A stretch of 35,106 nucleotides of DNA from a virus, in the IMG/VR virus record IMGVR_UViG_3300025732_000135, positions 1 through 35,106 of that record; one strand, 5' to 3'. Shown here piece after piece: positions 1,981 to 34,979 of this stretch; positions within the stretch are counted from its first letter, which is position 1, and every line of letters begins with the position of its first letter. Under the pieces are notes generated by a model, which was not told the origin of the DNA, did no database searches, and saw only the letters and a program-made list of their open reading frames with translations. The position numbers were made by a program, and so were the translations under genes.

Positions 1981-2760
1981 TCAGTAAGGAGTTCCGTGTC
2001 TCACGTGTCCCATGATTTCGTCAATGATTCCCGCAGTCTCATCGTGGTCACTTACGCTGTATGCACGATCATGATTCTTGAGGGCTTCATAGATCTCATA
2101 GTCGTTTCCATTTGCCTGACACCTGTCTCCCACAAACCAGACTGTTTCATCTGGAAAGTGATTGAGAGCGTATGTCTTGTCCCAGCCTACCGGGTAGATA
2201 TCGAATGAGGTAGATCCACCAAGCTTTGCAACAAGCGGAGTTCTAATCGTCATGAGACGAAGCTTCAACAGGGAAAGGATGCCAAGTCTGAAGTCATTTC
2301 TTGCATCGAAACTCTCAAACCAGGTCCTGCTTGAGCGATCTGCTTCCCTGCCAATTGGACACCAGTTGACCATTGAGCTCCGTGAGGAAACAAAGTTTCC
2401 AGTCAGGGGAAGGTCTCGAACGTTCTCCATGACCTCACGCTGCATGGTATTGAGAATGAGGTGAAGGTCACGCCACTCCTGTCCCAGGTGATTCATCATA
2501 GACTTGGGGACCGCCTGGGCCTGCCAGTGACCATTGACAAGTTTCCAGTGTTCAGTGCCATTGCACGGCAATGCTTCCACGCCATGCTCAAATGCCTCAA
2601 GCGGAACCTGCTCCTTGACATAGTCGAGTGCAGAACCTGTCACAATTCCAACCCTTGCAAAGGCAGAGAGTTCAGTAAGCTTCTGTAAGTTCTTTTGAGT
2701 GATTCCCTGACGCGGTGGTGTCAAAGTTCCATCAAGATCAAAGAGTACAACGTCTCGCAT
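1981..2760 (-). CDS. Phosphomannomutase-like HAD-family protein
   Basis: A 259-residue HAD-superfamily protein resembling eukaryotic-type alpha-phosphomannomutase (PMM1/PMM2), which interconverts mannose-6-phosphate and mannose-1-phosphate for GDP-mannose synthesis. Visible landmarks in family order: LFDLDGTLTPPRQ (nucleophile Asp8, acid/base Asp10), VGIVTGSALDYV (38-48), LPCNGTE (64-70), a cap segment with VNWCPIGREAD (131-141), FDIYPVGWDKTYAL (186-199), and FVGDRCQANGNDYEIY (209-224) with metal-binding residues. Length is close to the usual 245-260. The start codon overlaps the thyX stop by one base (TAATG), giving translational coupling. A sugar-nucleotide enzyme among nucleotide genes may serve glycosylation of virion, DNA or host surface. 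A generic sugar-phosphate phosphatase is the main alternative. Confidence 0.8.
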   Translation of the reverse strand: MRDVVLFDLDGTLTPPRQGITQKNLQKLTELSAFARVGIVTGSALDYVKEQVPLEAFEHGVEALPCNGTEHWKLVNGHWQAQAVPKSMMNHLGQEWRDLHLILNTMQREVMENVRDLPLTGNFVSSRSSMVNWCPIGREADRSSRTWFESFDARNDFRLGILSLLKLRLMTIRTPLVAKLGGSTSFDIYPVGWDKTYALNHFPDETVWFVGDRCQANGNDYEIYEALKNHDRAYSVSDHDETAGIIDEIMGHVRHGTPY

Positions 2761-3392
2761 TAGTATCCAAATGCCTCAATCGTATGTTTGAAAGGATTGC
2801 CGTCAATGTTCCTAACGAGATCCAGCATCTTCTCTGCAAGTTCCCTAACTTCGGTCTGGGCATCAGGCTTCATGCGCAGGCCGAGAAAGTGATTGAAAGA
2901 TCGCCAGTTGAACATGACGTCCATTGTAATCTGATTCCCATAGGGTAGGTAGAACCTGGCAGACTCCTTGGCACGCTTACGATCCATTCCGCTGTCGACA
3001 AGCCGTTGAAGGGTTTCGTGATAACGCATGAGTGCGTCCTCCATGAAAGCAACATACTTTGCCTTCTCAGTGAGGGGCCAGTCCTGGGGGACATAGTATT
3101 TGTCGTCCTTAAGTTCTTTATAGCGTGCAGATTCACCGTTGATCGAGACACCAATACGGTGTTTCAAGAGATGAATATGGACACTCGTGTCAACAGTTAC
3201 AAGAAAGTGAAGGCTTGACTTCTCAAAAACGGTGTGATGTCCCTGTTCAGCAAGCATCTTGAGAAGTTGCGAGATCCTATTTTTCTTTTCATCGTTCAAA
3301 TCACGAGAGGTCGATGTCCAAGCTGACAATGCGTGTGTTTCATCTGAGCCATACCATCCGATGAGCTCTACTTTATTCTCCTGACACGACAT
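2760..3392 (-). CDS. thyX: Flavin-dependent thymidylate synthase ThyX
   Basis: A 210-residue ThyX, which methylates dUMP to dTMP using methylene-tetrahydrofolate, FAD and NADPH. The signature is at 77-91 (KHRIGVSINGESARY), a variant of the family RHRxxSxNxxSxRY motif; Ser88 is the expected catalytic serine and Arg90 contacts dUMP. YLPYGNQITM (148-157) and NWRSFNHFLGLR (162-173) complete the nucleotide and FAD sites. Length is normal and the gene looks intact. Start: GGAGG sits 7 nt before the ATG at 3392, which lies inside the last codons of the homing endonuclease gene (20-nt overlap). A diverged 5' copy of the same gene lies upstream at 4168-4332, so this copy was probably brought in with the endonuclease. 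Confidence 0.95.
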   Translation of the reverse strand: MSCQENKVELIGWYGSDETHALSAWTSTSRDLNDEKKNRISQLLKMLAEQGHHTVFEKSSLHFLVTVDTSVHIHLLKHRIGVSINGESARYKELKDDKYYVPQDWPLTEKAKYVAFMEDALMRYHETLQRLVDSGMDRKRAKESARFYLPYGNQITMDVMFNWRSFNHFLGLRMKPDAQTEVRELAEKMLDLVRNIDGNPFKHTIEAFGY

Positions 3393-4128
3393 GTTTTATC
3401 CTCCACCCGTTGATAGTTCTGTCTTTGTTCACAATTCTTTTGATTGAAGAACCTGATATCTTGAACCTGTGATTTGCAAGAATCATGCACAATCGATTCA
3501 CAGATTCAGCAGTCACGGTTTCTCCGGTTGCCTCATGGGTTGCAATGCAAGATTTTGCATTGTGTGTAATCTCCCCTTTGGCATGTCCTTTGCATCGAGG
3601 ATCTCCACTCATGCCCTTGTTCCACCTTTCTTTTTCGAGCATGTTTTTCATTCTTGCTCTTTTGTGCTCTTCATCCTCGACTTTCCCATAATTCGGATTT
3701 TTGTCACCTCTTCTGGACTCTGACATCATACTTCTCCATGCCATTCCAGCCTCGGATGCAAGCCACTCTTTGCGTTTTTCACCCATCTTCTTTCGAGTTT
3801 CATCAGTGCCAGTCCAACCTTCTCCACCATCAGTGAGATTACAAAGAGACTCACGAAACTCTGCTATTAGAGACTTTTCACGTGCATATGCATCATTCTC
3901 TTCTTCGAATCTCTCTACTATCTCTACAAGAGGTTCGTGACCACAGTCCCAGATCTTTGAGATCAATCTGAGTAGGTGAAAATTATGAGAACCGCAATTT
4001 GTCGGCTTGCCTCTTTTTACCCATGTTCTTGCACGATACAAGTGAACCTTTGATCTGTTCCCTTGCCCCTTTCCGATGTAGAAAACCCTTTCATTTGTAG
4101 GATCAACGTATCTGTAGACATACCACAC
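3373..4128 (-). CDS. GIY-YIG homing endonuclease with NUMOD-like repeats
   Basis: A free-standing homing endonuclease of the GIY-YIG type (T4 Seg / I-TevI relatives), about 251 residues. The N-terminus carries the GIY-YIG core as WYVYRYVDP...FYIGKGQGNR; a Glu in the EKSLIAEF region is a candidate metal ligand. The middle has NUMOD3-like segments (GTDETRKKMGEKRKE and GDKNPNYGK), and the C-terminus has a NUMOD1/helix-turn-helix-like DNA-binding unit ending near RTINGWRI. The GTG at 4128 is preferred: AGGAGGTGATT puts GGAGG 5 nt before it, whereas the GTG at 4134 is part of that Shine-Dalgarno. The gene is more AT-rich than its neighbours, a sign of recent transfer. It sits exactly between a truncated thyX copy and the intact thyX, whose start it overlaps. 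Confidence 0.9.
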   Translation of the reverse strand: MWYVYRYVDPTNERVFYIGKGQGNRSKVHLYRARTWVKRGKPTNCGSHNFHLLRLISKIWDCGHEPLVEIVERFEEENDAYAREKSLIAEFRESLCNLTDGGEGWTGTDETRKKMGEKRKEWLASEAGMAWRSMMSESRRGDKNPNYGKVEDEEHKRARMKNMLEKERWNKGMSGDPRCKGHAKGEITHNAKSCIATHEATGETVTAESVNRLCMILANHRFKISGSSIKRIVNKDRTINGWRIKHVVSGE

Positions 4129-4130
4129 AA

Positions 4131-4157
4131 TCACCTCCTCTAATAGGTATTAGGTGA
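4131..4157 (-). promoter_or_regulatory. Stem-loop over the homing endonuclease ribosome binding site
   Basis: On the minus strand UCACC (4157-4153) pairs with GGUGA (4135-4131), and inside it UAAUA (4152-4148) pairs with UAUUA (4145-4141), with a GAGGA bulge at 4140-4136. Part of the Shine-Dalgarno of the GIY-YIG gene is thus inside the outer helix. T4 I-TevI is known to have its ribosome binding site hidden by a hairpin in early transcripts; this could act in a similar way. The inner loop is tight and the pairing was judged by eye. Confidence 0.35.
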
Positions 4158-4167
4158 ATGTGTGTTG

Positions 4168-4332
4168 TTATGTCTCATGTCCATGTTCAGCTAGCATTCT
4201 CAGAAGGGAAGGAATTCTCATTGCCTTCTCCTCTGTGAGGTCCCGGCTCGTGCTTGTCCACGCCGATAGAGCATGGACCTCGTCCGAACCGTACCAACCC
4301 ACTAATTCTACCGTGTTGTCCTGACAGGGCAT
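4168..4332 (-). pseudogene. Truncated 5' remnant of a second thyX
   Basis: Starting at an ATG with AGGA 6 nt upstream (GGATCAGAAATG), this 54-codon frame matches residues 1-54 of the intact ThyX downstream: about 40 of 54 residues are identical, including GWYGSDE and HALSAWTSTSRDL. Homology ends at LAEHGH, after which two codons and a stop follow; the intact gene continues HTVFEKS. Codon choices differ at many synonymous sites, so this is a copy from a different lineage and not a fresh duplication. It lacks the ThyX signature and all catalytic residues. It is entered by the homing endonuclease gene 40 nt downstream, consistent with resident thyX having been cut off and replaced. The frame may still be translated as a short peptide. 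Confidence 0.85.
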
Positions 4333-4537
4333 TTCTGATCCTGTGTCTAGCATGTTTGTCCCAAACTATCTCGAAACCCCACTGGAGGATTGTGAGTGTG
4401 GAACCTGTCAAAAGAACTATACCTGCAGAGTCAGCAACGTTACTTGTGAAGAAGAACGCTACGGCAAAGCTGTAGCACATGGAGAACAACCTCCATGCTA
4501 CAACCTTGCTTAGCAGTTCTATCTTTGCAGGCTTCAC
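4187..4537 (-). CDS. DUF2061-like small membrane protein with a run-on C-terminus
   Basis: A 116-residue ORF whose first 60 or so residues look like a DUF2061 membrane protein: KVVAWRLFSMCYSFAVAFFFT, then a second hydrophobic stretch with VLLTGSTLTILQWGFEIVWDKH, i.e. two probable transmembrane helices with charged ends. The GTG start at 4537 directly follows the ClpP-like stop (TAAGTG), so coupled translation is likely; only a weak TGGA lies upstream. From about residue 68 the frame runs out of phase through the thyX remnant, giving a Gly/Arg/His-rich tail that does not look selected. In the matching frame the downstream endonuclease gene stops six codons after the equivalent point (SGE then stop), so the tail is probably an artefact of the thyX rearrangement. 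Function of DUF2061 is unknown. Confidence 0.6.
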   Translation of the reverse strand: MKPAKIELLSKVVAWRLFSMCYSFAVAFFFTSNVADSAGIVLLTGSTLTILQWGFEIVWDKHARHRIRNALSGQHGRISGLVRFGRGPCSIGVDKHEPGPHRGEGNENSFPSENAS

Positions 4538-21798: not shown

Positions 21799-22008
21799 CT
21801 AGCCTCCTTTGTTGTCTGATTCACCCTTTGTGGGCATCTCTCCATTATCTATAATGACAGCAGACTTTGAAATTGCATCGTCGGCGATCTGAGCCACCTC
21901 CTCAGCAAAACGCTCGGCCTGAAGCCTCTCATCGGGGCTTAGCCTCTCCATTAATGCCTTGACTATTGGGTTGTTCATTGCCTGCTTTATGAGATCAGCC
22001 TTCATCAT
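21799..22008 (-). CDS. Small hypothetical protein after the tape measure (69 aa)
   Basis: A short, charged, largely helical protein starting MMKADLIKQAMNNPIVKAL and ending in a Gly/Lys/Asp tail. The ATG overlaps the tape-measure stop (ATGATGA), with a second ATG one codon on, so it is translationally coupled. Its stop lies 3 nt before the TTG start of the next structural gene. Small helical proteins here may be tail-assembly factors, but no family is recognised. Confidence 0.65.
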   Translation of the reverse strand: MMKADLIKQAMNNPIVKALMERLSPDERLQAERFAEEVAQIADDAISKSAVIIDNGEMPTKGESDNKGG

Positions 22009-25000
22009 ACCGGGAGCCCGAATGCCTGGCGGATGGCCTTGTTATCTGGCTCGCTCTCCTTCTCAGAGAGCTTGGCGGCGACCTTGAAGATCTCCTTGGC
22101 AATGTCCTCGGCCTTCATGGCGAGGTTCAAGTTGACAGTCATCTGTATTGGCTTCCTCTCGATGTTGAGGACTTCCTTCTTCAGTTGGAGTCCATCACCA
22201 ATTCTGTCAATTGTAGAGTTGATGTTTATATCTCCAAGGTCAGCAAGCGCATCATTCACGGCACGAATATCGTCAACAACCGCCTGTACGATGGAGGAGT
22301 ACTGTGCACCGACATGCTCTGACAGTATGCCTGCAGTGTCAGCAATGCCGTTTGCCATGGAGTACATCCTCCACATTCCATAATCAACGCCGTCAGCAAC
22401 ATTTGCGAGAGCAAGATAGTCAGGCGGCTTGAGGCCTGATACACTGCTAAGTTTCTCAACAACAAAGCCGATGGATGACATTGACCTGAGCAATGATGCT
22501 GTCATTTCCTTGTCTGACAGCGGAGAGTTGACCATGTTATCGACAGCAAGCCTCAGTGAACCTCCTGAACTGAGTCCTCGACCGATTCTACCAAGACCCC
22601 GTTCCATGCCCACGATGGTCTTCGTTAGGTTCTCCTGTGAGTTGTCAGAGAACCACCCCGTGTCCATCGCCATGAAGTCCTTGGTCATTGATGAGAGTGC
22701 ACCTGCTATCGTTTGTGCAGCGTTGATCGTCCTAATCACCGCCTTGGCCTCATCCTCCGTGAGGGTAGTGTCTGCGACACTTATCACAGCCTGTACCAGG
22801 GCAGGAAGATCTTCGACCATCGTCTTCATCATCTGTGTCATGCCCCGGGTGATGGCATTCACCTTCATGTAGGTGCTCTCGGAGAATATACTCGTGTCGG
22901 CTCCTGCAAGGGTCGTCATTGGTGCCAGGAGACTTGCTGATAGACCTGCAATTGCCTCAATGATTCCGGCAAGAGCCTGCATCTTAGTCAGGTCCTGCTC
23001 AGACCAGTTTACGGCCATGGTTGCAAGAGTCTTGACGACATTCACGATTGCGGCCGAGGCACTTGTCAGGAAGCTACTCATCGAGTTGACAGCCGCAACG
23101 ATTGTTGTTCCGCCAAGGGCTTCGGAAGCAGCACCAAGCTCACCTGCCTTCGTCGCAAGGCTAGCAAAGCTTGAGACTGATGCGATGACCTTTGAGAGCA
23201 CATCAACCTTCTTGTATGTTGTGTTAGGATCAGCCATCGGAATGTTCATGACTGTCTGGATGATACTGCGTATGGAATATGCCGTCGTTGCAAGGAACTG
23301 GCCTGCCGCTTCGATTCCATCCTCAAGCTTGCCCCTCGAACGGTTAAAGATGCTAAACATCATTGCGACTGAGGCCATCTCCTTGAGGGCCTCCGCTGTC
23401 TTCATTACTATTCCAAAGACTCTGTCAGCCTTGTCAAAGTCGAGACCCATATCTGCAGTCTTCTGGATGAGATACCCTAGCGCACCAGCAAAGAGGACAA
23501 CACCCTCAGTGAAGAATGCAGCGGCACCAACGAGTCCTGCGACAAGTACAAGGCCCTGCGGTCCTCCCAATAGGGCAGCAGCTCCTGCAGCGATGGCGGC
23601 GAAGGCAAGGGTTGCGAGCATTGCCCCACCCATGATCATGAGAAATTGTCCTGCCTTTCCAAGCGCATCATCACCCATTGCCCAAAGTGCAAGACGAAGA
23701 GCGCCAGCAAATGCAACCATTCCTACTGCGAGGAATGCTGCTGCACCCAACATGCCCAAGATTCCCTGGCCAACAGCACCTGGATTTATCTTCCCTGCTA
23801 TCTTTGAGAGGCCCCAGGCAGCAAGAACGCCAAGGCCGGTATTCACCCAAACCTTTGCCATGTCCTCCCAAGAGACTTGCTGCATTACAAAGTCTGCCGC
23901 AGCTACAGCACCAGCAAACACGACGACTGAACCCGCAACAAATAGCGCAGCCTTAAGAAGATTTTTTCCGGCCTGCTCATACTTTGCCTGTCCCTTGTCT
24001 GCAGTTTTAACAAGCGCTATTGCTGCAATAAACCCGACACCGGTGTTGACAAACACCTTTGCCATGTCTTCCCATGAAACATTTTTTAGAATCTTAGCAG
24101 CAGCCCATACGGCACCAGCGAATGCTACCACTGCTATTGCTATGAATGCAACTAGGGCCATTCCGACCTTAAACGCTTGCTTGATCTCAGGATCTTTGAT
24201 TTTTCCAAGAGCCTTTATTATTCCACCCGTAGAATTCACATTTTGTGAAGCGCCTGCTGATGCACCTGCTGATGCGGCAGGCGTGGCAGGTGGGACAAGC
24301 TTAGATGCAAGCCCCATTACGGCAGCTTTGATTAAACCACTTGCTGCAAGAGTTGTGAGATTGATGACTAAGGCTTTGCCTAATTGAAAGAGTATTAGAT
24401 ACTTTGCCAATTTCCAAAGGTAAGGCTTTGCCATTTCAAACAGCTGGTCGAACAGGCCCAGCAAGGCATCTCCTAGTGCAGGCAATGCACTTCCAATGGC
24501 TTCAACCATGGGACCTATCATGCCCATGATTCCATCCTGCGCACCTTCAGTCAGTCCAGCAGGATTCTTTAGGTAGTCAGTAAGGCCCGTGATTGCCTTT
24601 GTCGCACCTTCGATAAGCCACTTGCCGGCGACTCCGATTATCGCGCTCATGCCTTTGATAAAGTCACCGAGGCCTTCCATAAACTTTGATGACTCAGGAG
24701 ACTTGGGGTCGAAGAAGTTTAGGAACTTCTTCTTGATGTTCTGCATGAACTCCGTGGCAGCCTTTACAGGATCCTTGTTAAGGTCTTCAAAGAATTTCTT
24801 AAAGTCACCCAGAAGGCCATCTGTCAAAGCCGAGAAACGTTCAGGGCTGAAGAACTCGGAGATGGCTTCTGACATCTTCTTCATGCCGGGAAAGAAGTTG
24901 ACGAACATGTCACCGACCTTTCTTCCTGCAAATTCAACAATACGAAGTGATTGACCAAGATTCCTGAAGATGTTCATCATGGGGCCCGAGTGCTTCAGGC

Positions 25001-26477
25001 CCCACTCAAAGCCCCTGAAGAACCTGTCCATGAAACCACCGCCACCATCAAGTGTCTCGACAAGTCGCTTGATATTGTCAGATAGCTTGTCCATCACCTC
25101 AGCCTGGCTGAGCTGCTTCTTGCTGCTCTTGTCGGCCTCTCTCTGGATCTGCTCGTATGACTTGCCCATGTTCTTGCTTGACAGGGCAAGGCTCACCATG
25201 TTCTCGTCGAGGCCCGCTGATTGGGCAAGGAGTGCCTTCTCCTGCCTGGACATTGATTCTATTGACCTACCTGTTGCAGCAAATGCCTGCCTCAAAGAGT
25301 CTAGCCTCTTTGCAGGGTCCTGCTCCTTCATCATCTTGAAGGCATCGACAGTTATGCCAAAGCCTTGGGCAAGTTTCGCTGCATTTGTCGCTGCAGTCTC
25401 GAAGTCATCGAAGGCACCCATCAGCCCCTCAATGTCCTTGAGTTCCATGCCAAGCTTTCGCAGGTAGACAGCAGAAGTCACCATCTGTGTCTTGGTCATT
25501 GACCCAAACTTACCCATGTTTGTAGTCATATAGGCAAGGTCCTTGCCGATAAGCTTGGATGATATCCCAAACTTTTCGCCCATCTGGACAGCAAGGTTGC
25601 CCATTTCACCGAGCATCTGGGTCATGTCCTGCCCAGTAGCTATTGCTATTGAGCCGAGGGCCTTGAGGTCCTCATTGGACATTCCCATGCCCTTTGACAT
25701 GACGTATATCTTGTCGGCATTCGCAGCAAAGCTCTGCTCAAGAACGCTGAATACTGGCCCCATCGCAGCGGCAGTCTCAGTGAGCTCAGTAAGGGCCTTT
25801 GCAAGACCCTCAGGACCGTGGCCAAAGACCTTCGCCATGGTGAGACCCGTTCCTGCAAGTCCACCTGCCGAAGTCCGCAAAGTATTGAAAGAATCGACTA
25901 CTGCCTTTCCTTCATTCTTTGCATAGTCACCGAATGTGTCTCGTAAGTTCTCATAAGCCTCACGCAATGCTGCTGACCGTTGCATTAGCTCGTCTGCGCC
26001 TGCAATGAGATAATCTAAGAACTTGAAGGGTATCGAGATGATGGCTGTTGCCACACCAACGAAACCACGTGCCACAGAACCAAGAATATCAAAGATTCCG
26101 CCAAGCTGTGTTATGACTCCGCCAAACACACTCTTGAAGATTCCACCAAGAGAAAGGGTTCCCTTCTTGGTGTTCTTCATCTCATCATTCATGTCGGCGG
26201 TGGCAGAGGCTGCGTCATTGATTGAGCCTGTCATTCCACCGACAGCAGACGAGGCATTATCGGCCGCAGCAGAAGTGTTCCTCAGGCCCGCATTAATAGC
26301 CTGAAGGTTCTTTTCAGCGTCGTTCAGACCATTCTCTTTTATGGCCTTTGCGAATTCTGCCGCAAGCTGTATTTGACCCCGAAGTATCTCACTTTGCTTC
26401 GAAAGCAAGGCACTACGCGCAGCAATTGCCTTGTTGATAGCCTCTTGAACTTCAAGATTACCGGTTTCGTCAGCCAT
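22005..26477 (-). CDS. Tail tape measure protein
   Basis: A 1490-residue protein, by far the longest here, with the composition of tape measure proteins: long helices rich in Ala, Gly, Met and Lys, coiled-coil N- and C-terminal parts, and several hydrophobic stretches. The N-terminus (ETGNLEVQEAINKAIAARS) is helical. Residues about 770-1010 hold four hydrophobic repeats described separately. The tape measure fixes tail length and is ejected with the DNA; at about 1.5 angstrom per residue the length suggests a tail of a couple of hundred nm. It follows tube, chaperone-like and small ORFs in the usual tail gene order. AAGGA lies 5 nt before the ATG. No lysozyme or peptidase motif is seen in it. 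Confidence 0.9.
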   Translation of the reverse strand: MADETGNLEVQEAINKAIAARSALLSKQSEILRGQIQLAAEFAKAIKENGLNDAEKNLQAINAGLRNTSAAADNASSAVGGMTGSINDAASATADMNDEMKNTKKGTLSLGGIFKSVFGGVITQLGGIFDILGSVARGFVGVATAIISIPFKFLDYLIAGADELMQRSAALREAYENLRDTFGDYAKNEGKAVVDSFNTLRTSAGGLAGTGLTMAKVFGHGPEGLAKALTELTETAAAMGPVFSVLEQSFAANADKIYVMSKGMGMSNEDLKALGSIAIATGQDMTQMLGEMGNLAVQMGEKFGISSKLIGKDLAYMTTNMGKFGSMTKTQMVTSAVYLRKLGMELKDIEGLMGAFDDFETAATNAAKLAQGFGITVDAFKMMKEQDPAKRLDSLRQAFAATGRSIESMSRQEKALLAQSAGLDENMVSLALSSKNMGKSYEQIQREADKSSKKQLSQAEVMDKLSDNIKRLVETLDGGGGFMDRFFRGFEWGLKHSGPMMNIFRNLGQSLRIVEFAGRKVGDMFVNFFPGMKKMSEAISEFFSPERFSALTDGLLGDFKKFFEDLNKDPVKAATEFMQNIKKKFLNFFDPKSPESSKFMEGLGDFIKGMSAIIGVAGKWLIEGATKAITGLTDYLKNPAGLTEGAQDGIMGMIGPMVEAIGSALPALGDALLGLFDQLFEMAKPYLWKLAKYLILFQLGKALVINLTTLAASGLIKAAVMGLASKLVPPATPAASAGASAGASQNVNSTGGIIKALGKIKDPEIKQAFKVGMALVAFIAIAVVAFAGAVWAAAKILKNVSWEDMAKVFVNTGVGFIAAIALVKTADKGQAKYEQAGKNLLKAALFVAGSVVVFAGAVAAADFVMQQVSWEDMAKVWVNTGLGVLAAWGLSKIAGKINPGAVGQGILGMLGAAAFLAVGMVAFAGALRLALWAMGDDALGKAGQFLMIMGGAMLATLAFAAIAAGAAALLGGPQGLVLVAGLVGAAAFFTEGVVLFAGALGYLIQKTADMGLDFDKADRVFGIVMKTAEALKEMASVAMMFSIFNRSRGKLEDGIEAAGQFLATTAYSIRSIIQTVMNIPMADPNTTYKKVDVLSKVIASVSSFASLATKAGELGAASEALGGTTIVAAVNSMSSFLTSASAAIVNVVKTLATMAVNWSEQDLTKMQALAGIIEAIAGLSASLLAPMTTLAGADTSIFSESTYMKVNAITRGMTQMMKTMVEDLPALVQAVISVADTTLTEDEAKAVIRTINAAQTIAGALSSMTKDFMAMDTGWFSDNSQENLTKTIVGMERGLGRIGRGLSSGGSLRLAVDNMVNSPLSDKEMTASLLRSMSSIGFVVEKLSSVSGLKPPDYLALANVADGVDYGMWRMYSMANGIADTAGILSEHVGAQYSSIVQAVVDDIRAVNDALADLGDININSTIDRIGDGLQLKKEVLNIERKPIQMTVNLNLAMKAEDIAKEIFKVAAKLSEKESEPDNKAIRQAFGLPV
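23440..24175 (-). repeat. Fourfold ~70-residue hydrophobic repeat inside the tape measure gene
   Basis: Four copies of a unit with core VVxFAGAVxxA can be read in the translation: AVVAFAGAVWAAAK, SVVVFAGAVAAAD, GMVAFAGALRLAL and GVVLFAGALGYLI. In copies 1 and 2 the unit continues with almost the same segment, VSWEDMAKVFVNTGVG and VSWEDMAKVWVNTGLG, spaced about 210 nt. Copies 3 and 4 have lost that segment. The repeat arose by tandem duplication within the gene. Confidence 0.75.
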
Positions 26478-26536: not shown

Positions 26537-26773
26537 TTAGAGATCCCAGGAGTTTCCAGTGAATCTTCTGAACCTTTCAACAGCTGTACGCTTATTGACA
26601 AGGGCTTCCTGCAACCTGTCAGGGTCTGTGCTTTCAAGCGCCAGCATTAGGTGCCTACTTGTCATTGCTGCCTCATATATGACGGCTATGACCTGTGGGT
26701 TACCCTCAAGCGTTAGGGACTTTCTCTTGCCGAGGATGAATTCCGCAATTGTGCTTCTTAGTTTCTTGTCCAT
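26537..26773 (-). CDS. Small hypothetical protein before the tape measure (78 aa)
   Basis: A 78-residue basic helical protein starting MDKKLRSTIAEFILGKRKS. It lies between the frameshift-accessed chaperone ORF (15-nt gap) and the tape measure (59-nt gap). There is no Shine-Dalgarno before its ATG (TGAATAGTTATCTGCATG), so it may rely on ribosomes ending on the upstream ORF. Position and size suit a tail-assembly helper, but no family is recognised. Confidence 0.65.
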   Translation of the reverse strand: MDKKLRSTIAEFILGKRKSLTLEGNPQVIAVIYEAAMTSRHLMLALESTDPDRLQEALVNKRTAVERFRRFTGNSWDL

Positions 26774-26788
26774 GCAGATAACTATTCA

Positions 26789-27052
26789 TCAGGTGAAGCG
26801 CCTGAGCTTTGCGGGTACTTGAGACCTTGATCTTTCCATCATTGCTCTGGCGTCAGGCGTATTATCGTGGGCTCCCCTCGTCTGGCCGCCCTGTCCTTCA
26901 TTCGATTTTCTGATCTCCTCACCAAGCCTGCGCAAGAACCAAGCACGATACTGCACAGGCAAGTGATAGCACTCCTTGTATGAGAAGCCCATGTAATACA
27001 TGAGCAGGAAGGAGTGCTCGAGATAGATCTCCTTATCAGCCGGCGTCAGGCC
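26789..27052 (-). CDS. Downstream tail chaperone ORF, probably reached by +1 frameshift
   Basis: This frame gives GLTPADKEIYLEHSFLL and then MYYMGFSYKECYHLPVQYRAWFLRRL. An independent start at ATG 27001 would give only 70 residues, with no Shine-Dalgarno near it (the closest, AAGGAG, is 23 nt away). The 17 codons before that ATG look fully protein-like and run into the end of the preceding gene, so expression as a fusion is more likely. The YxLPxxYRxWFLRRL pattern recalls small tail or hub assembly proteins encoded just before tape measures; T4 gp51, next to gp26, is the positional counterpart. The C-terminal third is polar and likely disordered. Confidence 0.75.
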   Translation of the reverse strand, partial: GLTPADKEIYLEHSFLLMYYMGFSYKECYHLPVQYRAWFLRRLGEEIRKSNEGQGGQTRGAHDNTPDARAMMERSRSQVPAKLRRFT

Positions 27053-27079
27053 AAAAGAAGGACGCCCCGAGGGGCATCT
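27036..27079 (-). other. Predicted +1 ribosomal frameshift window
   Basis: Frame 0 (gp26-like gene) ends at TGA 27038-27036; the +1 frame is open from just below TAA 27082-27080. Within the window TTC TTT TGG (27059-27051) allows Phe-tRNA to slip +1 on TTTT and continue GGC CTG ACG; GGG G at 27074-27071 is a second slip candidate. A GC-rich hairpin (GCCCC / GGGGC, 27075-27064) lies just upstream. No stop interrupts the +1 frame from here to 26789. Confidence 0.65.
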
Positions 27080-27992: not shown

Positions 27993-28481
27993 TCAGTACT
28001 GCAGGACGCAGTTGTCCATCTGCAGGGTGAGCGCAATCTCAACTGCATCCTCAGTTCCATAATCGAGATCATTGAACTGTGCAGAAGTGATCTGGGCACC
28101 CTTGATGTCCCAAAGTTCAACGACTGTTCCGACAGGATCGAGCATCTTCAGCTGGATGTCACGCTTGTAGAAGTCTGCGTAGCCAGCGCGGCCTGAGACT
28201 GTCTCATTGTGTGAACGAATCCACTCCATGACCTGCTGTGCACCTGAGGGTGCAATTGGGTCGTAGAGAGTGACGGACATTGTGCTGAACTTTGCCTTGC
28301 CTGCAACGTAACGGACCGTGTTCATCCAGTGGATTTCAGTTGCCTGCATTTCCATCTGTGGCCTTGACGTCGTCTTTACCAGGAACGAGTCGATGCCCTC
28401 AATGGCAAGAATCCATCGAAACTTGCGCTTCGGCTCGAACCTGTTGGGCAGCATGTCTGTGACTGAAAGGGTTTCTGCCAT
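27993..28481 (-). CDS. Tail tube protein (gp19-like)
   Basis: A 162-residue protein of the T4 gp19 tail tube family, forming the inner tube through which DNA passes. It begins MAETLSVTDMLPNRFEPKRKFRWILAIEG and holds IDSFLVKTTSRPQ, VTLYDPIAPSGAQQVMEWI and FYKRDIQLKMLDPVGTVVE, all typical of gp19-like tubes; it matches the usual length (about 163). AAGGAG lies 7 nt before the ATG. It directly follows two sheath genes and is followed by a strong terminator, the classic sheath-tube order. Confidence 0.92.
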   Translation of the reverse strand: MAETLSVTDMLPNRFEPKRKFRWILAIEGIDSFLVKTTSRPQMEMQATEIHWMNTVRYVAGKAKFSTMSVTLYDPIAPSGAQQVMEWIRSHNETVSGRAGYADFYKRDIQLKMLDPVGTVVELWDIKGAQITSAQFNDLDYGTEDAVEIALTLQMDNCVLQY

Positions 28482-28514: not shown

Positions 28515-31469
28515 TTAGATCATTGCCCCAGCATTTGTCACAACGAAGTCGAGAGATACGAACTCGATGGAACGGGTCGGCTGGACGAAGATCTTTCCGC
28601 GGATTGTGTTGTTTTCCACGTCTGCCTGCGTCGTCGTAGTGGTGTCAATCTTCACCTTGTAACGATCCACACCGGACTGGGCCTGGATCTGCTTGAGGAT
28701 GGGATCGACCAGTGACGAGAACCTTGCGAGCGTGGACTCACGGTTCGGCTCGAAGAGGATGGTATTTGCAACCGCCCTCACCCTACGCCTAATCTCAATG
28801 AGAAGGCGCCTGACATTCACTCTGTCAAGTGCAGACTGCCTTGCAAGCATTGTCTTCTGTCCATAAACGACAGGTGACACGGAACCGGGCACGGTTGTGA
28901 CCGGGTTGATGTTGCTTGAGTACAGGGTGTCCAGGTTGACCCTATTGAGCTTCACCTGTGCCTCAATGACATCACTGAGTGCGCCACGTGTAAAGCCTGC
29001 TGGAGCGAACCATGGGTATGCAACCTTGTCGTTCAGTGCAAAGGCACCAAGGACCGAGACTGATGGGGGAATGACAAGGTTTGCACCTGTGCCCGGATCA
29101 GTCATCACAAGGTCAGGATAGTAGGCTGCAGCGAATGATGTATCCATCACCCTATTTGCAAAGGCCGTTGCCGTCTGTGTCACGGATGGAACCTCAGTCG
29201 AGCCCGTTATCACCGCACCATTGACGTCCTTTTGCTGGATATCCATGATGTAGAGTGCATCGAACCTTGACTCAACGGCCGACACTGCGTAGTCTGTGAT
29301 GCCTGGCTCCCTGATTCCCGGTATTGCGAGGATCTGGATGTCGACATCAGAAGTCTCAGCGAGGATGTCTATTGCCTTCCTGTAGGAAGCGACTGTCGGT
29401 CCATTTGAGCCGAACTGGTTCGTTGAGTAAAGCATCTCACGAACAGCGGCAGTATCATTCAGCGCAGACTTGTTCTGGTCAAAGATGTTTACACCATCGA
29501 ATCCACCATGCACAGGGAATGTGAACTTCACAAACCTACGTGATGTGCTGTCTGCAAGGTCACTCACGGCAAGGAACCTGTATCCTGCGCTGGGGCCACC
29601 TGTACGAAGGTACGAAGCCGATGTCCAAAGGTTTGGATTGGGTAGACCTGTAGAGGATGCCGTGATTACCTGAATCCTCTCGATCGTGAACGCATTATTG
29701 TTGAACACGTCGGCATCGTAGATTGCGCCATTTGCATTGGGTGTACCGTTGTTGTCACCAACCCATGCATTGGCAAAGTCCGTGTGGTACTTGGGGAAGT
29801 ACTTGACATGAGACTCAACAGTATAATCGGCATAAGAGTTCTTGTTCGGCTCTGTGATGCTGTCATTTGCCTCAAACTGCAATCCCCAGTGAAGGTATGG
29901 AGCAGTCCTCTTGCCACTTCCAACTCCGATAGATACCGACTTGCGGAAAGGAACTGGTGGCTGGACGGCCTTTAGGAGTTCTGCGCTGTTTGAACCGACA
30001 GTGCCAAGGAAACCGCTGCCCGATGTGACCAAGTGCCAGAGTCCACGGAAACCTGCTGGGAGTGCAGATGCCGGTACTTCCTTGTTCATCACATCATCTG
30101 CAATCTCAACTCTGATGTAGCTTGACACGTTGGGGTAGAGGCCTTCCATTGCAAGCTTCTGAGATCCAACGGCACGATCAAAGTCAAAGTAGACCTTCAT
30201 GTCACCGATCACCTTGCCGAAGAATCTAGGATTGTTCGGATTGATGCTCAGCCCAACAAAGCTCTCAAGAACGACCTGATTGTCATCGGTGTCACCGAAC
30301 TCACGAACGAATAGGTCGAATGTGCCATACTCGGAAGTTGGGTCAGTGGAAGGCGTAATGTTCCTTATTGAGATCTTGACCTTTGTGTTGGCGTAAGCGC
30401 CGTCATCACGTGCGTGAACCTTGAAGAGGTTGACACCTGTTGGGTCACCAAAGCGCTGGGAGATTACCCATGGTGAGAAGGCTGTCTGGAACCTGTCCTC
30501 AAAGCCCTCATAGTTGGGAACTACAGCAGTTCCTGAGTTGTGGCTCTCAGCGGACTTTAGTACGAATGCAATTTCCTGCTTTGTGCTATTGCCTGCCCAG
30601 GGTCCCATATTCAGGTTTGAACCTGTTGGAACTGCATACTGTGAGTACACATCGTATGCCGTATAGAGATAGTGACCTGCCTCTTCAATGCGAGTCGGAT
30701 CAGTGTTGAAGAGGGTGGCAAAGTAGTTTGCAGCACTTGGATCGAAGCTTGCAGAAACGGTGTTTCCGAAAGCATCGTTTGCCTTGTGTCCTGAGAGGAA
30801 GAGGACGAACTCCTGCTTACCAGACGAGATGTCAAGGGTTCCAGTTGTGAAGCCAACCTTGTTGGCAGGTGCACTTGAGATGCTCAGGTTGTTGGTGTAA
30901 CCAGCCTCAGCAACTGATGCCGAGAGTGTTGGTATGACACCAGATGGCACCATGAGGACGCCCCTGATGATAGGGGCTGCCTTGGCTGAGGCCTGGATTC
31001 CTGCATCAGACAGATAGGTCGAACCTGCCGATTCGGACATGAAGCAGCCGAGGAAGTAAGTCCTTCCAGGCGTATCGTGACCCCATGAGTAAGCATTGGA
31101 GCCAATGTCGCCAGTTGACTGCACAATTTTGTCACCGACCACAAAACCTGAGTTTGTGACCTTTCCTGCATTGATGCCGCCCGCGGTCCTTGCCTTGCCA
31201 TCTCCTACACCAAGCACCCTGAGGTAAGTTCCTGCGTTGGCATTCTTTAGCCACTCGTAAAGTGCTAGTGGTCCAAACTGGCCACTTGCAGAATCGAACT
31301 TATTCACAAAGTCCTGGTAGTTTGCAACCGTCACGGGGACGAATGCAGGTCCACGGTTCGCGGTGCCGATCACACCGGCTGGCGTTCCGGTGGGCGTCAC
31401 TGATGTCGGTCCGGAGAGGTCAATCTCCCTTGTGCCTACACCAGCGCTCTTGAAAGTGAGTTCAGCCAT
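28515..31469 (-). CDS. Tail sheath protein 2 (gp18-like)
   Basis: A 984-residue contractile tail sheath protein. The N-terminal region has GTREIDLSGP, TPAGVIGTANRGPAFVPVTV and FGPLALYEWLKNA, and the C-terminus has the core sheath fold: SALDRVNVRRLLIEIRRRVRAV, ILFEPN, VENNTIRGKIFVQPTRSIEF and FVVTNAGAMI. It is longer than T4 gp18 (659), from added surface domains in the middle. It is a paralogue of the sheath encoded upstream (27-nt gap) and lacks that protein's inserted domain. AGGAG is 9 nt before the ATG. Sheath subunits hexamerise around the tube and contract on infection; two paralogues could build a mixed sheath or be used in different parts of the tail. Confidence 0.92.
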   Translation of the reverse strand: MAELTFKSAGVGTREIDLSGPTSVTPTGTPAGVIGTANRGPAFVPVTVANYQDFVNKFDSASGQFGPLALYEWLKNANAGTYLRVLGVGDGKARTAGGINAGKVTNSGFVVGDKIVQSTGDIGSNAYSWGHDTPGRTYFLGCFMSESAGSTYLSDAGIQASAKAAPIIRGVLMVPSGVIPTLSASVAEAGYTNNLSISSAPANKVGFTTGTLDISSGKQEFVLFLSGHKANDAFGNTVSASFDPSAANYFATLFNTDPTRIEEAGHYLYTAYDVYSQYAVPTGSNLNMGPWAGNSTKQEIAFVLKSAESHNSGTAVVPNYEGFEDRFQTAFSPWVISQRFGDPTGVNLFKVHARDDGAYANTKVKISIRNITPSTDPTSEYGTFDLFVREFGDTDDNQVVLESFVGLSINPNNPRFFGKVIGDMKVYFDFDRAVGSQKLAMEGLYPNVSSYIRVEIADDVMNKEVPASALPAGFRGLWHLVTSGSGFLGTVGSNSAELLKAVQPPVPFRKSVSIGVGSGKRTAPYLHWGLQFEANDSITEPNKNSYADYTVESHVKYFPKYHTDFANAWVGDNNGTPNANGAIYDADVFNNNAFTIERIQVITASSTGLPNPNLWTSASYLRTGGPSAGYRFLAVSDLADSTSRRFVKFTFPVHGGFDGVNIFDQNKSALNDTAAVREMLYSTNQFGSNGPTVASYRKAIDILAETSDVDIQILAIPGIREPGITDYAVSAVESRFDALYIMDIQQKDVNGAVITGSTEVPSVTQTATAFANRVMDTSFAAAYYPDLVMTDPGTGANLVIPPSVSVLGAFALNDKVAYPWFAPAGFTRGALSDVIEAQVKLNRVNLDTLYSSNINPVTTVPGSVSPVVYGQKTMLARQSALDRVNVRRLLIEIRRRVRAVANTILFEPNRESTLARFSSLVDPILKQIQAQSGVDRYKVKIDTTTTTQADVENNTIRGKIFVQPTRSIEFVSLDFVVTNAGAMI

Positions 31470-31496: not shown

Positions 31497-34400
31497 TCAC
31501 TCAAACTGCACACCGGAGTTCGTTATGACGAAGTCTATTGAGATGAACTCAACAGCCCTGGTCGGAACGACCACGATCCTGCCGTTGACCCTGTTGTTTT
31601 CAACATCGGTCTGCGTATTGTTTGTATCATCCATGATCACGCGGAACTTCTCGATACCGGCCTGTGCCTGGATGAGGGCTAGCCTCGGTGTTACCTGATT
31701 GACGAACCTTGCCCTGGTGGCGGGTGTGTTCTGTTCAAACAGGATGCCGTTGGCAATATCTGTCACTGTGCGCTTCACTTCGATCATCAGGCGGCGGACA
31801 TTCACTCTGTCAAGTGCGGACTTGGCAAGCTGAAGTGTCTTCTGTCCGAAGATGACGAAACCACCCGTTGGGAAGACAGCGATCGGATTGATCCTGCCTG
31901 AGTAGAGTGTGTCCCTGTCACCTGAGTTCAGGCGAACCTTGACGTTTGCAACGAAGTCCAGGGCACCACGATTGAAGCCAGCCGGCGCGAACCATGGGTA
32001 CGTGACCTTATCGTTGAATGCCATTGCACCGAGAGCGGCAACCGAGGAAGGAACTATGACCCTCCTGCCGTTGACTTCATCGTTGACCTGGACGTCTGGG
32101 AAGTACGTTGCGGCGTAATTGTTGTCAATTGCCCTGCCGATGAATGTCTCTGATGTGTACCTGACACTTGGCTTTGTCGTAGTTCCATCCCAAAGCCTGT
32201 AGCCATTATCATCGTAAGAGGGAATGTCCATGACGTACATTGCCAAGCTATTGTTGCGAGCCTTGTCGGCGGCATAGTTCGATACAAGTGCGTCCCTTAT
32301 GCCTGGGATTGCAAACACATTGACGTTGGTCGTGAACTCATCGGTCATAATGTCAACCGCAGCCTTGTAAGAAGCAACGATGTTATTGTCATTTCCGATG
32401 CCTGCGGCATTTGTCTGGAGACCGGCCTCCACAGCACCGAGCGCCTTTCCGTTCCCACCGTTGGCAGTCGATGAGGTCTCAGTTGAAGATGCCCTGTCAT
32501 TCATCAACCTGTTGTCCTTGTCGAGGATGTTCAGGCCGTCGAAGCCGCCGTAGAAGATGTTGGTGAACTTCATGTAGGGTGTGAACCTATTGAAGACCAC
32601 CGAGGACGAGTGGATGAGCGTTGCCATCGTTACGCGGTTGGTGGCGCTGCCGTAGACTATCCTGTAGTCTGAGGCGTCGTTGATTCCATCGCGTACGTAA
32701 GCGGCTTCCCTCATGTGTGCATCGGAAGTTCCTGTGACGTCTGTGAACGTCTGGTTCGAGAGGGCGACCCTTGCAAGCGTGAACTTGTTTGCATTGAGCA
32801 CGTCCGCTGCGGATCCTGTCACAAGGACATCCTGCTGTGCAATACCCTGGAACTTGGTGTATGCCGCCACGATGGGGTTCTGCATCACGCCGAGGTTTGC
32901 GTTGAGAATGGCATTTGAAACCGATCCTGTGAGGGGTACGGATGTTCCCATCACGCCCCAGTAGAACCTTGAATCTGCCCTCTCATTGACACCAGGTGAA
33001 CCGATATTTCCGTCCGTGGTGCTCATCTCACCCCTCGTCACCTTGAATCGAAGCGGAAGGGGTGGAATGAGTGAACGCTTCATGTCAGTGGTTGCACCCC
33101 TTCCATGCAGCCTTGTTCCAGCAACGAACGTCTTGCCGTCGAAGGTGAGGTTACCACCACCATCGAAGAGCGAGTCGTTAGTCTTCAGGGCAGGAATACC
33201 GTGGAAGCCGAAGGGGAGAGCATCAGATGGGACCTCACCTGTCTCGACAGCCGGGTTCATGACCACCCTGATGCTTGGGCTGCGGTTTGGATACTTTCCT
33301 GTGATAACCAGCCTACGCTCGTCACCATCATCAGCGTCAAAGTTGTAATAGACCTTCTTGTCACCAATCACCCTGGCGATGTAATTGTCTGCCTTTGGAT
33401 TGAGTGAGAGGCCTGGGTAGGCTTCTACAATCTCCGCCTGGATGTCGTCATCGAGGAAACGTCTTACCTGGATGTCAAAGGTTCCGTATGGGTTTGACTT
33501 GTCAGTTGAAGCATTGACATTGGCAACAGAGATCTTTACCTTGTCATTGCCCCATGCACCGTCAGAGATCGTCTCGAAGTGGAAGAGATCGTACTCCATC
33601 TTGCCGAATGGCTGGGAGATGAAGGCTGTGGTGCGAGGTGTGGTGTAGCGCGTGTCGTACCTACCAAACTTGGTATTGAAAGCACCGGAACCCGAGAGGA
33701 TACCGATCGTTTCTGTGGTACCACTCTTCCTGACAGGTGAGACCTCCTGGTCGACTGAGAAGTCGAGGTAGAGGAGGTGCTTCTTCTCGGAGAAGAGGTC
33801 AGGATCCGTGTTAAGGACCTTTGAGATGTAAGCATCGTCATTTGGATCGAGGGATGCCGTGAGAATCCTGACGCCTACGAAGCCATCAGTGACGTTTGTA
33901 GCAAAGTCCGCATTTGAAGACGAGATTACAATCTTGAACTTTCTTGATGTCGATGGGCTTGATGAATCCTCATCAGAGATGTAAGCGGTGTCATCCATCG
34001 TGGAACTATAAGTTCCTGCAAATGGCATCACCTGCACACGAGATCCTGAGGCTGCAAATGTTACGGCTCTCACAAGGTCAACCTGTGTGGATCCACCATA
34101 TGACACATCAAAGCTTGGGTTGTCAGTGAAGATAGGCAGGCCGTTCTCTGCACTTGGAGATGATGCTGAGATGTAGTGCTGGGCAACTATGAACTGGACA
34201 GAACTGTCGGTCCATGGATGTCCAACATTGTCACCACCAGAGAAGTTAGTCTTTGTGAACACGCTTGAAGCAAGTGCACTAACTGGTGTGATTGTTGTAT
34301 TGCCTGCATCACCTGCGGTTGACTGTGTAAGCGTGAGGACACCCAGTGCAATTGCAACAGTGATTTTCCCATTGTGGCCTGTGGCACCTTCGATTGCATT

Positions 34401-34979
34401 CTTGGTTTCTGTCGCTATTGTTGTAACAGATGACAATCCCTGGACTTGAACGACAATTCGGTTAGAACCCAGATCTGTGCCTGTGGGATTTGTACCTGTG
34501 TCATCAAACGCGTAATTGCGAGTCGTGCCATCTGTCGAAACGATCGTATATTCGCCTGTGTTATAATCGGCGGGTGTTACAGAAACATGTGTTAGTGATG
34601 CAACGGCTGCATTGGCAGGATCTGTTGGATTACCGGGCGTGATCTTGAAGCCTGCATTCTTGACAGTGCCATTAGCCAAAGTGTCGGCTATGTCTGCCAG
34701 TGAGCTGTTTGCTCCGGCCCCAAGTGTACGAATGTAGGTGAGTGCTCCCTTGTGCTTGAGCCACTCGCGTGCCGCATATGGTGCTGCGATGTCAGGGTCG
34801 AGGCCTCCGAACTTTGATGTGAAGTCCGTGAAGTTGCCCACCGTGACGGGCACGAATGCCGGACCCTTCTCAGCGGGACCGATGAGTCCAGCAGGGGTTC
34901 CCTGCGGTCCGGCTGCGCCGGCAATAAGCTCGATCTCCTGCTCGAAGAATCCCGGCGAGAGGAATGTCTGTTCGGCCAT
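31497..34979 (-). CDS. Tail sheath protein 1 (gp18-like) with an inserted domain
   Basis: An 1160-residue tail sheath protein sharing the whole plan of sheath 2: QEIELIAG, TPAGLIGPAEKGPAFVPVTV, YAAREWLKHKGALTYIRTLG at the N-terminus and SALDRVNVRRLMIEVKRTV, ILFEQN, VENNRVNGRIVVVPTRAVEF and FVITNSGVQF at the C-terminus. Residues about 115-250 (nt 34637-34230) have no counterpart in sheath 2; they form a Thr/Gly/Ala-rich beta domain (TIVSTDGTTRNYAFDD, ITVAIALGVLTLTQSTAGDA) of a kind seen as decorations on phage tail proteins. CAGGAGATTCTAATG gives a good start. The first of the visible structural genes, it is probably transcribed at high level together with sheath 2 and tube. Confidence 0.92.
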   Translation of the reverse strand: MAEQTFLSPGFFEQEIELIAGAAGPQGTPAGLIGPAEKGPAFVPVTVGNFTDFTSKFGGLDPDIAAPYAAREWLKHKGALTYIRTLGAGANSSLADIADTLANGTVKNAGFKITPGNPTDPANAAVASLTHVSVTPADYNTGEYTIVSTDGTTRNYAFDDTGTNPTGTDLGSNRIVVQVQGLSSVTTIATETKNAIEGATGHNGKITVAIALGVLTLTQSTAGDAGNTTITPVSALASSVFTKTNFSGGDNVGHPWTDSSVQFIVAQHYISASSPSAENGLPIFTDNPSFDVSYGGSTQVDLVRAVTFAASGSRVQVMPFAGTYSSTMDDTAYISDEDSSSPSTSRKFKIVISSSNADFATNVTDGFVGVRILTASLDPNDDAYISKVLNTDPDLFSEKKHLLYLDFSVDQEVSPVRKSGTTETIGILSGSGAFNTKFGRYDTRYTTPRTTAFISQPFGKMEYDLFHFETISDGAWGNDKVKISVANVNASTDKSNPYGTFDIQVRRFLDDDIQAEIVEAYPGLSLNPKADNYIARVIGDKKVYYNFDADDGDERRLVITGKYPNRSPSIRVVMNPAVETGEVPSDALPFGFHGIPALKTNDSLFDGGGNLTFDGKTFVAGTRLHGRGATTDMKRSLIPPLPLRFKVTRGEMSTTDGNIGSPGVNERADSRFYWGVMGTSVPLTGSVSNAILNANLGVMQNPIVAAYTKFQGIAQQDVLVTGSAADVLNANKFTLARVALSNQTFTDVTGTSDAHMREAAYVRDGINDASDYRIVYGSATNRVTMATLIHSSSVVFNRFTPYMKFTNIFYGGFDGLNILDKDNRLMNDRASSTETSSTANGGNGKALGAVEAGLQTNAAGIGNDNNIVASYKAAVDIMTDEFTTNVNVFAIPGIRDALVSNYAADKARNNSLAMYVMDIPSYDDNGYRLWDGTTTKPSVRYTSETFIGRAIDNNYAATYFPDVQVNDEVNGRRVIVPSSVAALGAMAFNDKVTYPWFAPAGFNRGALDFVANVKVRLNSGDRDTLYSGRINPIAVFPTGGFVIFGQKTLQLAKSALDRVNVRRLMIEVKRTVTDIANGILFEQNTPATRARFVNQVTPRLALIQAQAGIEKFRVIMDDTNNTQTDVENNRVNGRIVVVPTRAVEFISIDFVITNSGVQFE

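Follow-up and report, generated by a model that had tools for sequence, protein, structure and literature searches.

Tail assembly chaperone genes of T4-related phages very probably joined by a programmed +1 frameshift at a phenylalanine codon

Overlapping ORFs between the tail tube and tape measure genes

The window, that is, the whole stretch of viral DNA analyzed here (35,106 nucleotides), carries two overlapping ORFs between a tail tube gene and a gene identified by its size and place as that of the tape measure protein. The features of the locus are as follows.

22005-26477, minus strand: ORF of 1490 aa, taken from its size and position as the tape measure protein, the expected client of the chaperones
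26537-26773, minus strand: 78-aa ORF separating TAC-C from the tape measure gene
26789-27079, minus strand: +1-frame ORF, the putative TAC-C extension, which would be used from 27052
26999-27001, minus strand: internal ATG, proposed as the start of the second ORF and probably an ordinary Met codon
27036-27890, minus strand: TAC-N, a T4 gp26-like short tail assembly chaperone of 284 aa in the zero frame, ending at TGA 27038-27036
27048-27059, minus strand: candidate slip site TTC.TTT.TGG.CCT
27993-28481, minus strand: gp19-like tail tube protein, expected to be the partner to TAC-NC (phrog_4542, E 1e-29; PF06841, E 4.3e-7)
28515-31469 and 31497-34979, minus strand: tandem pair of tail sheath paralogues that have diverged to 34% identity (about 905 columns)

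Family searches with the first ORF gave matches to Pfam T4_baseplate (PF12322; E 2.4e-19) and PHROG 150 (E 9.2e-24), and its AF2 model has a pLDDT of 89. The 1490-aa ORF had no family match in Pfam and PHROG searches. With the two sheath paralogues, the gp19-like tube protein and the 1490-aa ORF as neighbors, the position is typical of tail assembly chaperones. The initial annotation had seen here a tail chaperone pair preceding the tape measure gene, and gp26-family homology and gene position agree with it.

At its 3′ end, the gp26-like ORF (27890-27036) reads TTC.TTT.TGG.CCT.GAC.GCC.GGC.TGA. The +1 frame has a TAA at 27082-27080, is open from 27079 to a stop at 26791-26789, and is translated across the junction as ...FGLTPADKEIYLEHSFLLMYYMGF. 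On re-reading the sequence, we found the coordinates, the peptide, the T run and a GGGG in the overlap (27068-27065) to be as first described. Joining TAC-N to the +1 extension would yield a TAC-NC of 366 aa.

Conservation and selection at the junction

For comparison, 80 close relatives were taken from IMG/VR (53-75% identity to the window), and scans with proteins of Flavobacterium phage immuto, Microcystis phage Mel-JY01 and LR756508 brought the clade to 259 loci. The gp26 gene ends with TTT.TTT.TGG.CCT, TTT.CTT.TGG.CCT or TTC.TTT.TGG.CCT in 80/80 close relatives (core columns, 2.0 bits), and in every one whose contig is long enough, a +1 ORF runs across the gp26 stop. Clade-wide, in raw counts over related and statistically nonindependent sequences, UUU followed by U or C stands in frame within the last 15 codons of gp26 at 257 of 259 loci, and all 244 loci whose contig reaches far enough have a +1 extension that is 150 nt or longer; at none are the two ORFs fused in one frame. 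Sixteen further loci, obtained by a profile search of GTDB genome bins (metagenome assemblies, the contigs of which may be binned phages), all fit the pattern of UUU.Y plus +1 ORF. With the slip core in all 80 nearest relatives, in 176 further clade loci and in the 16 GTDB-bin loci, the observation is far beyond chance. An indel introduced into one gene by sequencing or assembly, which a single contig would be unable to exclude, is refuted by the same frame relation throughout the clade and in the genome bins, and we regard its probability as negligible.

The only two clade loci that lack UUU.Y, L266 (around 2218) and L271 (around 2215), are also the only ones that lack the +1 ORF. They carry TTC.TTG or TTC.CTT, and their C domain, which lies in a different frame, starts from an ATG of its own next to the gp26 stop. 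In the tree, the two are sisters nested within the clade. Slip codon and +1 ORF are thus linked. The initial annotation had named two observations in relatives that would speak against a frameshift, a single fused frame and a separate start for the second ORF; the former was found in no relative and the latter solely in these sister lineages, exactly where the slip codon was lost. Since the relatives pass these tests, the joining of the two ORFs by a frameshift is supported, as is the predicted conservation of slip site and overlap.

The constraint is visible at the level of codons. At slip codon 2, phenylalanine is encoded by TTT in 200/200 cases and by TTC in 0/200, whereas the share of TTC is 26 to 41% at six further Phe columns conserved in these genes; at slip codon 1, TTC occurs in 18/254, each time with TTT at codon 2 (raw counts over related genes). 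The +1 reading upstream of the slip is not conserved among the close relatives and is often shut by nearby stops; conservation begins with FGL. The -1 frame usually closes soon past the stop in this clade (median, 20 to 50 nt). Nucleotide conservation at the junction partly follows from two overlapping coding frames. Selection is also seen at the protein level: between the slip and ATG 27001, the +1 frame has a pN of 0.27 and a pS of 0.70 among near relatives (pN/pS 0.38), and beyond the last gp26 stop, the pN/pS of the +1 stretch is 0.32. Judged by these ratios, the +1 reading upstream of ATG 27001 is under purifying selection.

This selection weighs against the second ORF being a separate protein with its own start, translated through re-initiation or coupling once ribosomes have reached the gp26 stop. 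An in-frame ATG does lie 34 nt past that stop, and the C domain of L266 and L271 does begin at an ATG adjoining it, but these two users of a separate start have lost UUU.Y and changed frame. As the initial annotation had stated, ATG 27001 has no ribosome binding site (no SD-like 4-mer at 4 to 11 nt), and 1 of 78 near relatives has such a 4-mer at the ATG. Met at this position is not invariant (70/78 relatives), and 14/77 Mel-JY01-like and 5/74 immuto-like loci contain no ATG, GTG or TTG between the beginning of the overlap and a point 66 nt beyond the slip. A start at the ATG, which encodes residue 18 of the C domain, would moreover cut the first predicted helix. We therefore consider a separate start improbable.

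Two further routes would lead into the same frame. A -2 shift, as in phage Mu gpGT, is indistinguishable from +1 by frame alone, and the 7-T sites permit clean -2 re-pairing. At the window's TTC.TTT.TGG, however, a -2 shift would place tRNA-Phe on UCU, with a mismatch, whereas +1 would place it on UUU, and therefore, +1 is the better fit here. The -2 shift is equally disfavored at the other TTC.TTT sites, at TTC.TTT.CGT of GXN1 and at CTG.TTT.CGC of BRock, and we judge it quite unlikely. Transcriptional slippage, in which RNA polymerase would lose one U in the T run, would suit the TTTTTTT of most relatives; yet the run in the window is of four, and some 50 members of the clade carry TTTCTTTGG, where the runs are of three, so that this route seems more unlikely still.

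No clear stimulator of frameshifting was found among SD pairing, upstream structure and downstream structure at the clade junctions. Pairing with the anti-SD upstream of the slip was no better than in synonymous controls (z about -0.3) and did not go beyond the amino acid constraint, and RNA structure downstream was no better than the control in the window's group. Folding of the upstream 60 nt was slightly better than in controls with synonymous codons (mean z, -0.7 to -1.2; about -0.1 in a control region). Of the GGGG and the GC-rich hairpin just upstream that the initial annotation had pointed out, the former is in place and the latter is weak; neither is demonstrably a stimulator.

The C domain and slip direction in orthologous gene pairs

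The structures of TAC-N and the C domain were predicted separately. For the C domain, three helices are predicted (residues 5-22, 26-31 and 34-54), with a mean pLDDT of 73 that rises to about 88-90 over residues 11-50; a Foldseek search of the PDB with this model gave no match. For TAC-N, the top VIA-align row was the HK97 chaperone 2ob9, a weak similarity (Z 5.6, rmsd 6.5 over 87 residues; Foldseek E 2.6). With the second ORF as the query, neither a single-sequence tblastn match in phage records nor a family match at a safe threshold was obtained. Pfam DUF6760 was considered as the family of the C domain and rejected: a typed clade-like consensus reached E 2e-4 only, under the family cutoff, and DUF6760 was not found in five related phages. 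This subthreshold match may be a link to other contractile systems; no mention of DUF6760 was found in the literature searched.

Profile comparisons with hhalign connect the clade to the cyanophages. The +1 fusion and the cyanophage -1 fusion are homologous across their N and C domains (prob 96.6, E 5e-10), and a comparison limited to the C domains gave prob 94. The cyanophage fusion in turn aligns with T4 gp51 over junction and C domain (prob 89) and with T4 gp26 in the N part only (prob 97), so that gp26 seems to correspond to the short form and gp51 to the long one. The direct comparison of the clade's own fusion with T4 gp51 was not significant (prob 5.6), significance being reached only via the cyanophage bridge. 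The 2022 abstract of Vladimirov and colleagues reportedly gives 26 and 51 as the short and long T4 genes.

Slip direction differs between these orthologues. S-PM2 and 80 cyanophage relatives have T.TTT.TTC at the same place of gp26 in 81/81 cases, with the C ORF in the -1 frame. The C ORF is likewise in -1 in Cr30, phiN3, AS-szw, PG216, P-SSM2 and RHph_I1_9 as well as in Paride, Atu_ph07 and LR756511; SP-15, LIS04, GXN1, BRock and LuckySocke have it in +1 with UUU.Y. The tree, in which some long branches are unsafe, sets the -1 groups, cyanophages and Straboviridae, apart from the window's side (support, 100/100). With -1 there and +1 in the window's clade at the same place, the direction would have switched within one orthologous gene pair. 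The three jumbo phages with -1 (Paride, Atu_ph07 and LR756511) fall on the window's side, and that -1 loci have a gp26 nearer to the +1 clade suggests that the direction changed more than once.

These comparisons also correct the annotation of phage records, in which the C domain is cut short, wrongly started or called a separate gene. In three public records (L081, 3839-3949; L083, 3737-3973; L276, 26191-26364), it is annotated as a short gene of its own and not as part of a joined CDS; the annotated gene is truncated, begins upstream of the slip or is named gp51.

Proposed mechanism and relation to known systems

Taken together, the sequence comparisons make it very probable that the frameshift producing the long tail assembly chaperone is real, conserved and programmed, in the +1 direction. 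We are highly confident that the locus encodes a two-form chaperone, with the short TAC-N ending at the TGA and the long TAC-NC arising by a +1 slip. In our model, one start serves both forms. Most ribosomes would follow the gp26-like frame to the TGA and release TAC-N; in the others, the P-site codon TTT (27056-27054) would re-pair with TTT (27055-27053) and +1 reading would resume at GGC (27052-27050), adding the three-helix C domain to TAC-N. Pairing would be kept when tRNA-Phe on UUU moves one base forward to UUU or UUC. By analogy with lambda gpG/gpGT, TAC-N may coat the tape measure protein and TAC-NC may recruit the tail tube subunits. The occurrence of the shift, its efficiency, the exact step and the chaperone roles are what we infer from these patterns.

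Slippage of +1 at UUU-pyrimidine sites is said to have been measured in Escherichia coli by Schwartz and Curran in 1997, and +1 slippage at argI by Fu and Parker in 1994. The latter work, on a +1 error at argI, is listed in PMC5009743. In influenza PA-X, +1 slippage at UUU_C was shown, which directly supports such re-pairing, and its authors predicted a class of such sites (PMC3498833); UUU_CGN sites have been proposed in amalgaviruses (PMC5052127). As in influenza PA-X and the plant amalgaviruses, tRNA-Phe on UUU would re-pair to UUC in the distant relatives GXN1 and BRock, which carry UUU_CGN; those are eukaryotic viruses, whereas the site here belongs to a bacterial phage and is mostly UUU.UGG. 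The tail chaperone of the haloarchaeal myovirus HSTV-2, described as "very likely +1" (PMC5009743), would share the direction and the kind of gene but comes from an unrelated host group. With prfB (RF2), the locus would share +1 P-site slippage beside a slow A-site codon, which we propose here. The sequences nevertheless differ from the prfB type: CUU.UGA with a close upstream SD in prfB, UUU.UGG with a sense A-site codon and an unsupported SD in the window.

The lambda gpG/gpGT and HK97 chaperones resemble the locus in gene position and two-form logic but shift -1 on other heptamers and show only that weak fold similarity. The window's site is not of the -1 X_XXY_YYZ chaperone type, its C ORF lying in +1; it belongs with the UUU.Y slippery sites, as do all 257 loci with the arrangement. 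Closest are the T4-like phages. Frameshifting in their tail chaperones was described by Vladimirov, Gautam and Davidson (2022, Virology 566:9-15), as cited in PMC10885494 and PMC12846349; the former cites this study for T4-like phages in which a long fusion gene accompanies a short one, and the latter reports from it a -1 polyT signal. Their TAC-N/TAC-NC pair, like that of the window, has an orthologous gp26-like TAC-N and a C domain before the tape measure gene and occurs in long and short forms; it differs in the -1 polyT signal, compared with +1 at UUU.Y here, and in T4 itself, the short and the long form come from separate genes. Gp26/gp51 of cyanophage S-PM2 (Kyanoviridae) shares homologous N and C domains, the FF dipeptide at the slip and a small C ORF annotated separately, as gp51; T.TTT.TTC and the -1 frame set it apart.

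The initial annotation knew of no description of a +1 event on a gp26-like gene. Slipping of +1 at UUU.Y in general and frameshifted T4-like chaperones are already known; since the latter are published, what would be new here lies in the +1 direction and the UUU.Y rule. The clade-wide +1 form with its UUU.Y site and the -1/+1 contrast between orthologues look new, being undescribed in the literature that could be searched. In a large group of T4-related phages, a +1 slip at a Phe codon appears to produce the long tail chaperone; for the matching protein, related cyanophages use a -1 slip at that very place of the gene. With moderate confidence, we extend this to a wider evolutionary reading: a clade-wide programmed +1 shift at UUU.Y, for which no strong SD or pseudoknot stimulator was found, would make TAC-NC; the orthologues of cyanophages and Straboviridae would use -1 at U.UUU.UUC; the direction would have switched; and one lineage (two loci) would later have exchanged the slip for a separate start. 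The related clades offer a natural comparison, with the same junction and the same Phe-Phe codons but opposite slip directions in about 80 to 250 sequences each, and hence, what sets +1 versus -1 slippage is testable with short reporter cassettes.

Elsewhere in the window, a 54-residue N-terminal piece of ThyX (4168-4353, minus strand) is 74% identical to the full ThyX gene (2760-3392, minus strand), and a GIY-YIG/NUMOD3 homing endonuclease gene (3373-4134, minus strand) lies between the upstream piece and the full gene.
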